DNA of 54,270 nt from Streptosporangiales bacterium. Its GTDB lineage: Bacteria > Actinomycetota > Actinomycetes > Streptosporangiales > WHST01. Under the pieces are notes generated by a model. That model had not been told where the DNA came from. It ran no database searches and saw only the letters and a list, made by a program, of their open reading frames with translations. The stretch lies in the NCBI GenBank assembly GCA_009379825.1, contig WHTA01000036.1:1-54270 (forward strand), given 5' to 3'. The translations under genes and the position numbers were made by a program. Position 1 is the stretch's first letter. Each line of letters opens with the position of its first letter. This document shows, in pieces, positions 1,066 to 9,223 of this stretch.

Positions 1066-1512
1066 CTACGCAGAAGGGTGGCGGGCGGCGCCTGCCAGCG
1101 GTGTGGTGTCGACGTACCGGGGCTCGTAGACGCGCTCCGCGAACTTCCAGCCGTCCGGGGTGCGTTGGTAGCGGTCGTGGTAGATGCCGTAGTTCAGGTG
1201 TGAGCTGCCGTTGCGCATAAGGCCGAACTCGGTCAGGTATGCGCGACCGGACGCGGTGTCGCCGGCGAGCTGGATCGTGCCTGGGTGCACGGTTTGCACG
1301 AAGTACTCCCACAGACCCTGCAGCCGCTCGACGCCGGCGCGGATCCCCTCGCGGCCGACGGTCTCGGCGTCGACTTCGGGGATCCGCACAACGCCGTCCT
1401 CGGTGAACAGCGAGGCGACGCGGTCGTAGTCGCGCACCATCACTGCGTCGGTGAACTCGCCACGCAGCGCCTCGATCTCGACACGGTCGGCGATGGCCTG
1501 GAGTTCGCTCAT
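1066..1512 (-). CDS. SnoaL-like / NTF2-fold protein
   Basis: A 148-residue protein of the SnoaL_4/NTF2 fold. It starts with a helix IADRVEIEALRGEFTDAVMVRDYDRVASLFTEDG, the usual first helices and strand of this fold, and ends with the strand pattern YHDRYQRTPDGWKFAERV. The family includes polyketide cyclases, dehydratases and many proteins of unknown role, so the substrate cannot be named. The start ATG at 1512 is preceded by a strong GAGGAGGAG ribosome binding site. It is divergent from the aldo/keto reductase at 1624, and the palindrome at 1567-1584 lies between the two genes. Confidence 0.8.
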   Translation of the reverse strand: MSELQAIADRVEIEALRGEFTDAVMVRDYDRVASLFTEDGVVRIPEVDAETVGREGIRAGVERLQGLWEYFVQTVHPGTIQLAGDTASGRAYLTEFGLMRNGSSHLNYGIYHDRYQRTPDGWKFAERVYEPRYVDTTPLAGAARHPSA

Positions 1513-1562: not shown

Positions 1563-1593
1563 TTGACTTCGAGTGCACTCGAAGCTGTTCCAT
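1563..1593 (+). promoter_or_regulatory. MerR-type promoter and operator for the aldo/keto reductase
   Basis: A perfect 18-bp palindrome, CTTCGAGTGCACTCGAAG, occupies 1567-1584. It sits inside a candidate promoter: TTGACT (1563-1568), 19-bp spacer, TTCCAT (1588-1593). A dyad within an over-long 19-bp spacer is the classic architecture of MerR-regulated promoters. The half-site resembles the CTTGAGT/ACTC-type sites known for NmlR/AdhR-like MerR regulators. The likely binder is the MerR protein at 2646-3113, cotranscribed with the reductase. The -10 hexamer is weak, as expected for an activator-dependent promoter. Confidence 0.6.
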
Positions 1594-1623
1594 CTCCGTG
1601 ACGGGAACGGCAAAGGAGCAGAC

Positions 1624-2634
1624 ATGGAACAGCGACGGCTCGGGGCCACCGGTCCGATGGTGTCGAGGTTCGCGCTCGGCGCGATGATGTTCGGCGGCGC
1701 CGCGGACGAGAAGGCCAGCCGGGAGATGCTCGACACCTACATGGGCGCCGGTGGCACGTTCATCGACACCGCGGACAACTACAACCAGGGCACCTCGGAG
1801 CGCTGGATCGGGCAGTGGGTGAAGGACCGCCCCGGCGTACGCGACCGCGTCGTGCTGGCCACCAAGGGCCGGTTCATGGTCGACGGCCAGCCAGGCGCCA
1901 GCCTCAGCCCGGCGTACCTGCGTACCGCGCTCGAAGCGAGCCTGCGCCGGCTCGACGTCGACCACGTCGACCTGTACCAGCTGCACGGACCGGACGCCGA
2001 CCACCCGCTCGAGGACGTGGTGGAGTTCCTCGCCGCCGCCGCGGGTGCCGGGCAGATCGGCTACGTCGGGGTGAGCAACTTCCCCGGCTGGCAGGTCGCC
2101 AAGCTGGCCCGGCTGCTCGCCGAGCACGGCGGGCCGCCGCTGGTGTCGCACCAGATCCAGTACAGCCTGCTGGTCCGCGAGGTCGAGTGGGAGATCCTGC
2201 CCGCGGCCATCGACGCGGGCGTCGGCACCACCTGCTGGGGCGCGCTCGGCCAGGGTTACCTCACCGGCAAGTACCACCGCGACCGTCGTCCCGCTGCCGG
2301 CACCCGCGTCGGCGAGAGCCCGGACGACGTCCTCGAGGCGTGGACCCGCCGCAACACCGACGAGGTCTGGGCCATCGTGGACGGCCTGCGCGAGGTCGCC
2401 GAAGGGCACGGCGTGACGCCGGCGCAGGCGGCGCTGGCCTGGGTGTCGGACCGGCCGGGCATCGGCGCACCGATCGTCGGCGCCAGGCACGCCGGCCAGC
2501 TGCGCGAGACGCTCCCGGCCGCCGACCTGCACCTCGACGACAGCGCGCGGGCACGCCTGGACGAGCTCACCGCGCCACGGGCGGCGGACTACCCGTACCC
2601 GTTCCTCGCCCAGATCAGCCATTGGCACAACTGA
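1624..2634 (+). CDS. Aldo/keto reductase
   Basis: A 336-residue NAD(P)H-dependent aldo/keto reductase of the (beta/alpha)8 fold. Visible family marks are FIDTADNY with the catalytic Asp and Tyr near residues 45-55, the catalytic Lys in VLATKGRF, the His in LYQLHGPD near residue 120, and GYVGVSNFPGW. The C-terminal region APIVGARHAGQLRE is the cofactor-binding segment. ATG 1624 is chosen because AAAGGAG lies 6-7 bases upstream; an upstream ATG at 1573 overlaps the operator. It probably forms an operon with the MerR gene, which begins 11 bases after the stop. The physiological carbonyl substrate is unknown. Confidence 0.9.
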   Translation: MEQRRLGATGPMVSRFALGAMMFGGAADEKASREMLDTYMGAGGTFIDTADNYNQGTSERWIGQWVKDRPGVRDRVVLATKGRFMVDGQPGASLSPAYLRTALEASLRRLDVDHVDLYQLHGPDADHPLEDVVEFLAAAAGAGQIGYVGVSNFPGWQVAKLARLLAEHGGPPLVSHQIQYSLLVREVEWEILPAAIDAGVGTTCWGALGQGYLTGKYHRDRRPAAGTRVGESPDDVLEAWTRRNTDEVWAIVDGLREVAEGHGVTPAQAALAWVSDRPGIGAPIVGARHAGQLRETLPAADLHLDDSARARLDELTAPRAADYPYPFLAQISHWHN

Positions 2635-2645
2635 GGAACTCGGCA

Positions 2646-3113
2646 ATGATGGACAGAATGAGCAGCGCAACACCGGACGACGACCTCGACGGCGTCGGCA
2701 CCTGTGCGATCGGCGAGGACCTCGCCGCCACGCCGATCACCCACCCGCTGACGGTGAGCGAGGTCGCGAACCGGATCGGGCTGTCCGCCCACACGCTGCG
2801 CTGGTACGAACGCATCGGACTGCTCGACCACGTCGAACGGGACAGCTCAGGCCACCGCCGCTACACGGCGACCGACGTGGAGTGGCTGCTGTTGCTGATC
2901 CGGCTACGGGCCACCGGGATGCCGGTGAAGGACATGCAACGGTACGCCGAGATGGTCCGTGCAGGCGAGCACACCGAGACAGAACGCCGGGTGCTGCTCG
3001 AAGCACACCGCGAACGGGTGGCGGCGCACATCGCCGAGCTCCAGCGCCACCTCGCCGTCATCGACCACAAGGTGAGCATCTACCGCCGCAACGACCACCT
3101 CGCCGCCAGCTGA
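2646..3113 (+). CDS. MerR-family transcriptional regulator
   Basis: A regulator of about 155 residues. After a 30-residue variable N-terminus the winged-helix DNA-binding domain reads LTVSEVANRIGLSAHTLRWYERIGLL, followed by the second helix-turn-helix GHRRYTATDVEWL and the LRATGMPVKDMQRYAEMVRAG motif. The C-terminus is a dimerisation coiled coil (HRERVAAHIAELQRHLAVIDHKV). No Cys pair suggests metal binding, so it belongs with the NmlR/YcgE-like group often paired with oxidoreductases. GAGGAA overlaps the stop of the reductase gene, so translation is probably coupled. Alternative ATG starts are at 2649 and 2658. Confidence 0.85.
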   Translation: MMDRMSSATPDDDLDGVGTCAIGEDLAATPITHPLTVSEVANRIGLSAHTLRWYERIGLLDHVERDSSGHRRYTATDVEWLLLLIRLRATGMPVKDMQRYAEMVRAGEHTETERRVLLEAHRERVAAHIAELQRHLAVIDHKVSIYRRNDHLAAS

Positions 3114-8828: not shown

Positions 8829-9223
8829 CCGAGCTCGATGATCCTGCACGTCCCTACGGTGTCGTCGCTCGGGTTTCGCTCGGCCGCCGCACGGGTGCCG
8901 ACGAGCGCGTGCCGTAGCTGACGCAGCTCGGCGATGGAGCGGTCGACCTCGTCGATGCGTTCGTCGAGCAGCTGGACGACGTGGCGGCACGGCACCGTGC
9001 CGCCACGTCTGAGCTCGAGGATGTGCCGGATCTCGGCGAGCGAGAGCCCGCGGGCCTCCGCCTGCCGGACGAACCGCAACACCGTGATGTGGTCCTCGGT
9101 GTAGGTGCGGTAGCCGGCACTGTTGCGTGCCACCGGCGGGACGAGGCCCTTGGTCTCGTAGAGGCGGACGGCCTTGGCCGACAGGCCCGCGGCCTGCGCC
9201 GCCATGCCCACGGTCATCGTCAT
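8825..9223 (-). CDS. Metal-responsive MerR-family regulator
   Basis: A 132-residue MerR protein. The N-terminal DNA-binding domain reads VGMAAQAAGLSAKAVRLYETKGLVPP, then GYRTYTEDHITVLRFVRQAEARGLSLAEIRHILEL. C79 with H81 at the start of the dimerisation helix and C126 near the C-terminus are placed like the metal-binding Cys residues of ZntR, PbrR and CueR. It is therefore probably a metal sensor. It is divergent from the P-type ATPase, with a MerR-type promoter in between, so it likely activates that gene. AGGAGG lies before ATG 9223. The exact metal is not readable. Confidence 0.88.
   Translation of the reverse strand: MTMTVGMAAQAAGLSAKAVRLYETKGLVPPVARNSAGYRTYTEDHITVLRFVRQAEARGLSLAEIRHILELRRGGTVPCRHVVQLLDERIDEVDRSIAELRQLRHALVGTRAAAERNPSDDTVGTCRIIELG

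Follow-up and report, generated by a model that had tools for sequence, protein, structure and literature searches.

What does the palindrome do that precedes two genes of a Streptosporangiales genome, one for an aldo/keto reductase (AKR) and one for a MerR regulator? The locus lies in a stretch of 54,270 nucleotides, called the window here. We propose, with a probability of roughly 0.78, that the palindrome serves as operator for the MerR-family regulator encoded next to it, which would switch the AKR-merR operon by the MerR mechanism in response to a carbonyl or another electrophile. The features of the locus are as follows.

1066 to 1512, minus strand: SnoaL-like gene (SnoaL_4, domain search), divergent; nothing ties it to the unit.
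1563 to 1568, plus strand: -35 element TTGACT, read directly; 119 of 120 related sites have TTG in the corresponding position.
1567 to 1584, unstranded: candidate MerR-type operator CTTCGAGTGCACTCGAAG, a perfect 18-bp palindrome, read directly; conserved beside MerR relatives.
1588 to 1593, plus strand: -10 element TTCCAT, read directly; weak, with no A at position 2.
1613 to 1618, plus strand: Shine-Dalgarno-like AAGGAG of the AKR gene, read by eye; a leadered transcript is expected.
1624 to 2634, plus strand: AKR, DepB/AKR18-like, 336 aa (Pfam PF00248; best PDB matches 7utf and 8hwn).
2646 to 3113, plus strand: MerR-family regulator, 155 aa, NmlR-like without a Cys54 equivalent, with an N-terminal extension holding Cys20 (profile and structure-database searches, alignment).

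The initial annotation described an 18-bp palindrome in a 19-bp spacer between TTGACT and a weak -10, and direct reading gives the same picture. All nine base pairs of the palindrome match. The spacer runs from 1569 to 1587 (19 bp), and the palindrome occupies its upstream part, taking in the final two bases of the -35 element and leaving 3 nt before the -10, which agrees with TATAAT at three of six positions. The dyad thus lies inside a spacer of 19-20 bp, as in MerR-type promoters, where, according to the accessible part of PMC9909328, the hexamers are out of place because of the long spacer, and the regulator, once activated, realigns them by kinking the dyad. Downstream, the AKR gene starts with an ATG at 1624 and its stop codon ends at 2634, and the MerR ATG follows at 2646 on the same strand. 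The gap is 11 nt, and AKR and merR likely form one operon; both reading frames are open. The one promoter-like pair given by a promoter scan is at 2622-2650, at the AKR/MerR junction.

Is the palindrome rare in itself? This was ruled out, as the window holds five perfect palindromes of 18 bp. The word CTTCGAGTGCACTCGAAG, with up to 3 mismatches allowed, occurs once in the window, against a mean of 0.00 in 100 shuffles, and once in the 6.15-Mb genome. It is conservation and context, not the palindrome alone, that put the site beyond chance. A link to viruses was dropped, as the 22-mer had 0 matches in viral contigs.

The conservation was followed from the MerR protein only. Among the loci referred to here as named, which are the best 80 of 542 confirmed ones (77 titled Streptomyces), 78 have the site upstream of MerR at 15 or more of the 18 positions, and 69 of these 78 also hold an AKR, located after MerR. 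The two counted as lacking the site are L071 and L081, the latter with a degenerate version (14/18). At L027, L032, L038, L045, L049, L052, L067, L068 and L088, site and MerR are present and no AKR was detected, two other AKR queries included. A match was present in 219 genomes of the order, and in the best 28 of these loci (L099-L126) site and AKR go together: 22 have both, and the other 6 have neither. Note that, for lack of independence among the relatives, the events are fewer than these counts suggest. Within the genus, the congener G001 has the gene order of the window, AKR before MerR, at its locus L097, with the site TTGACTTCGAGTGCGCTCCAACCTCCAGCAT and a 19-bp spacer, and its MerR is 76% identical to that of the window. 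A third genus member, whose genome is 77% complete, gave no MerR at E<=1e-20; its one promoter-pattern match at 2 mismatches is at a locus without MerR, AKR or SnoaL (L176) and is probably due to chance. The congener has also a second NmlR-like MerR (L098, about 989-1010) whose near-palindrome is accompanied by TTGACC and, at 19-bp spacing, TAGCTT, and this arrangement faces what appears by eye to be a short-chain dehydrogenase. What is observed is the sequence anatomy, and that site, spacing and gene partners are conserved. This supports a MerR-type operator and promoter ahead of an AKR-merR operon, as the initial annotation had it, within a unit that recurs in many relatives.

How strict is the promoter arrangement? 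The 120 sites were chosen irrespective of the -10, and all except one fit one of two registers, each giving a 19-bp spacer. In the first (88 sites), TTG and the palindrome are followed by 4 nt and TAGCGT (once TAGGTT), and in the second (31 sites), which the window uses, TTGA and the palindrome are followed by 3 nt and xAxxxT. Every one of the 119 register-matched sites has xAxxxT at the offset predicted for it, and none has the motif anywhere else between offsets 0 and 9. An in-frame start codon is found 6-7 nt past the -10 in 100 of the 119 (69/88 and 31/31), which predicts leaderless mRNAs under a MerR switch. The window is an exception to this pattern, having a leader with AAGGAG and the enzyme gene first. 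Against our main reading, its -10 is without the A2 kept in all 119 relatives, which may mean a very weak promoter or one in decay. The MerR might then be essentially a repressor, or TTCCAT in a decayed promoter might give no useful activation. The congener's -10, CAGCAT, keeps A2 as well, and an integrase remnant lies near the unit; however, the dyad is still perfect and both genes have kept their frames, and we consider either case unlikely.

Can the operator type be found from the promoter alone? A degenerate 18-mer was matched in 22 of 296 class genomes, compared with 3 of 296 for its reversed control. All 21 loci besides the window hold a MerR relative, and 18 hold an AKR. At one of them (L127), the MerR is distant (36%), neither register fits and no AKR is present, and the match is probably another regulator's site. 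L130 and L133 have site and MerR and no AKR, also when searched with two other AKR queries. The full promoter pattern was found in 192 of 297 order genomes, and its reversed control in 0. The window's own site is absent from these matches, being one -10 base (A2) off, and its genome (G000) is counted through a second site. A version of the pattern with a 21-bp spacer matched 1 of 296 class genomes, a sample different from the 297 order genomes; the two samples have 28 genomes in common, of which 17 match with the 19-bp spacer and 0 with the 21-bp one. Thirty full-pattern loci, which are not a random draw, were inspected with flanks of about 1.5 kb: 14 have AKR and MerR, 10 AKR only, 4 MerR only, and 2 neither. 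A site with no AKR found was thus seen at 9 of the 80 named loci, 3 of the 21 pattern loci and 6 of the 30 full-pattern loci (4 with MerR, 2 with neither). The operator type goes mostly with AKRs, often without an adjacent MerR, but not strictly. With so fixed a promoter grammar, targets can be looked for from sequence alone, and a guess made by eye has become a well-supported regulatory unit.

Then is the linked MerR really the protein that binds the site? The window's genome has 14 other MerR-like matches at E<=0.001, and one of these proteins could bind the window site while the linked MerR acts elsewhere. The 10 of 30 loci with the pattern near an AKR and without MerR fit such a paralogue. 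But the paralogues are only 26-38% identical to the window MerR, and both genus genomes with a linked MerR keep the site before the operon. Moreover, 6 of 6 order loci with MerR and without AKR are also without the site, an argument tempered by the 4 full-pattern loci where MerR and site occur without AKR. Taken together, we regard binding by a different paralogue as decidedly unlikely, and the adjacent MerR is kept as the candidate regulator.

Does this regulator have further targets? On another contig of the window's genome (C16:20907-20937; L174, L163) there is a full operator-promoter copy, TTGACTTCGAGTACGCTCCAACTCCTAGCGT. It is less symmetric than the window site and stands 7 nt upstream of the start codon (ATG) for an F420-dependent LLM oxidoreductase (TIGR03560). 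In the congener, a second pattern match (C188:6560) precedes an AKR. The reversed control at up to 2 mismatches had 0 matches in the three genomes of the genus. The site at the F420-dependent oxidoreductase is probably controlled in trans by the same MerR, and a small regulon is likely because the genome holds this second copy. Just upstream of the second site is an AKR with a different inverted repeat (L163, about 1440-1485), TCAAC, 4 nt and GTTGA, before TAGCGT; an ATG follows a few nt later, and by eye this looks like another MerR-type promoter.

How might the switch work? Regulator binding, activation, the inducer and the second target are what we infer here, and the course of induction follows the general MerR mechanism. 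A MerR dimer would sit on the palindrome between the two hexamers of the AKR-merR promoter, in the 19-bp spacer. When no inducer is present, the over-long spacer would misplace the hexamers and the operon would be off or low. Once the inducer is present, MerR would kink and untwist the DNA so that RNA polymerase could engage both hexamers. AKR and MerR would then be produced together, and the AKR would reduce the inducing compound or related ones. A response to carbonyls or electrophiles, much as the initial annotation suggested, is plausible; from the relatives of the AKR and the kin of the regulator, a reactive carbonyl or another electrophile is the most likely inducer.

What is known of the enzyme? 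It belongs to the AKR superfamily (Aldo_ket_red, 244.8 bits), and its residues 1-326 of 336 align with 7utf (E 1.4e-86), which with DepB (8hwn) is the closest solved relative. DepB of Rhizobium leguminosarum is described, in the available portion of PMC9427786, which names 7UTF, as a broad aldehyde and ketone reductase acting on acrolein, methylglyoxal and 4-oxo-2-nonenal, and as part of a deoxynivalenol pathway. The AKRs of the window and L097 are 64% identical. For eight representative AKRs linked to MerR in other families, identity is 50-80% to one another and only 32-39% to these two. Closer sequences are found among 13 AKRs from other families (L149-L161, which, the window aside, are all the class-sample sequences at E<=1e-90), three representatives of which are 48-53% identical to the window and L097 enzymes; the 13 loci gave no MerR match and no convincing site. 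More distant MerR relatives adjoin yet other AKRs. The simplest reading of these sequences is that the regulator-operator unit changed its enzyme partner. In a MerR tree of 41 rows, the window and L097 are grouped (99/98), and we claim no history because the tree leaves 20 of its 38 internal branches open and its bootstrap had not settled.

The initial annotation also placed the divergent SnoaL-like gene under the same site. Its start at 1512 on the minus strand is only 54 bp from the palindrome, and this nearness is what would favor a shared operator. However, SnoaL was not found at L097, nor in that congener genome at E<=1e-28. A SnoaL match is present in 45 of 297 genomes, window included, and 19 of 19 relatives inspected have no such site, AKR or MerR within flanks of about 1.5 kb. 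The promoter scan, which covered spacers of 16-18 bp only, gave no hexamer pair on the SnoaL strand. Control of SnoaL by this operator is thus unsupported and very unlikely; we dropped the gene from the unit, and it is probably a bystander. Two other neighbors may be recorded: an integrase-core (rve) fragment at 243-491 of the window (minus strand), close to the contig edge, which is an insertion-element trace near the unit, and a further MerR-like gene at 8906-9223 (minus strand, 34% identity).

To which family does the regulator belong? It has the MerR winged helix-turn-helix (PF13411 64.4 bits, PF00376 51.7, PF09278 31.4, all above cut-off). The best NCBIfam match is NmlR, with a score of 88.4 bits that is far under the cut-off of 175 (NF041849), and the best PDB matches are the HiNmlR structures 5e01, 5d8c and 5d90; 5e01 is named HI_0186, and we take all three to be HiNmlR. 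Cys54 of HiNmlR was taken as position 56 of the 5e01 chain, which is numbered with extra residues, the offset being our own reading, and it aligns with Arg86 of the window MerR. This column has Lys in 96, Arg in 36 and Cys in 0 of 132 aligned sequences. Of the columns of the two other HiNmlR cysteines in the stretch, one holds Leu, Met or Ile and never Cys across the 132 sequences, and the second has Cys in a single order locus. In the part of PMC4776306 that was available, Cys54 of HiNmlR and Cys52 of AdhR are called absolutely conserved in the NmlR/AdhR clade, and changing the Cys to Ala in either protein is reported to have blocked the formaldehyde response. A linked thiol-dependent aldehyde dehydrogenase (adhC/adhA) was not among the scanned neighbors SnoaL, AKR, LysE and DUF1203. 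The initial annotation likened the site to NmlR/AdhR operators; for the protein, resemblance to HiNmlR stands, and membership of the clade is not supported. Could the protein still be a true NmlR/AdhR, sensing aldehydes through the conserved cysteine? The best matches and the long spacer holding a dyad are in accordance with this, but the score is under the family cut-off and the sensing column is Lys or Arg throughout, and we hold it to be highly improbable. Judged by sequence, the regulator is NmlR-like in build and not NmlR by the defining residue, and we do not file it as NmlR because that residue is Lys or Arg in all 132.

Could another cysteine serve? Metal-responsive MerR proteins (CueR, ZntR and MerR) carry a metal-binding Cys pair. 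The window MerR has a single Cys, residue 20 in the N-terminal extension, which is common to L097, and the lack of a metal-type pair is thereby borne out. The C-terminal [2Fe-2S] cysteines of SoxR are missing as well, and the SoxR score is 29.5 bits against a cut-off of 116.9. One or two Cys are found in the extension at 76 of the 80 named loci (best 80 of 542), a count that depends on the start codon chosen. In 21 of the best 28 order loci, position 98 carries the Cys instead. Of the 131 MerR proteins extracted, 17 have no Cys at all. As none of these cysteines is shared by all, the common mechanism may be something other than thiol sensing.

How does the unit compare with known systems? No paper on an actinobacterial MerR-AKR operator was found in titles and abstract openings, a search mostly outside subscription journals. 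Compared with CueR, ZntR and SoxR, the window MerR with its one Cys has neither metal pair nor Fe-S cysteines, and compared with the BmrR type its 155 aa hold no large drug-binding domain. The promoters of these regulators, in the available text of PMC9909328 and PMC5045206, likewise place the dyad in a 19-20-bp spacer. For the enzyme, DepB/AKR18 is the nearest solved relative, and deoxynivalenol is not indicated as a substrate of the window AKR. By protein sequence, the nearest characterised regulators are NmlR of Haemophilus and Neisseria and AdhR of B. subtilis, which are linked to carbonyl-clearing genes in the accessible sections of PMC4776306, as here. The window differs from them in having Arg86 for Cys54/Cys52, an AKR partner which is not adhC/estD, and the N-terminal extension with Cys20. 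We tentatively suggest, as a possible though not the favored outcome, an actinobacterial NmlR-like branch partnered mainly with AKRs through the 19-bp promoter, with Lys or Arg at Cys54, in which the inducer would be sensed otherwise and distant AKR subfamilies swapped while operator and regulator were kept; the extension Cys, the position-98 Cys or direct ligand binding free of Cys might, equally tentatively, do the sensing. The unit offers a clean test of how a MerR protein akin to the aldehyde sensors can work when it lacks the cysteine thought essential in them.
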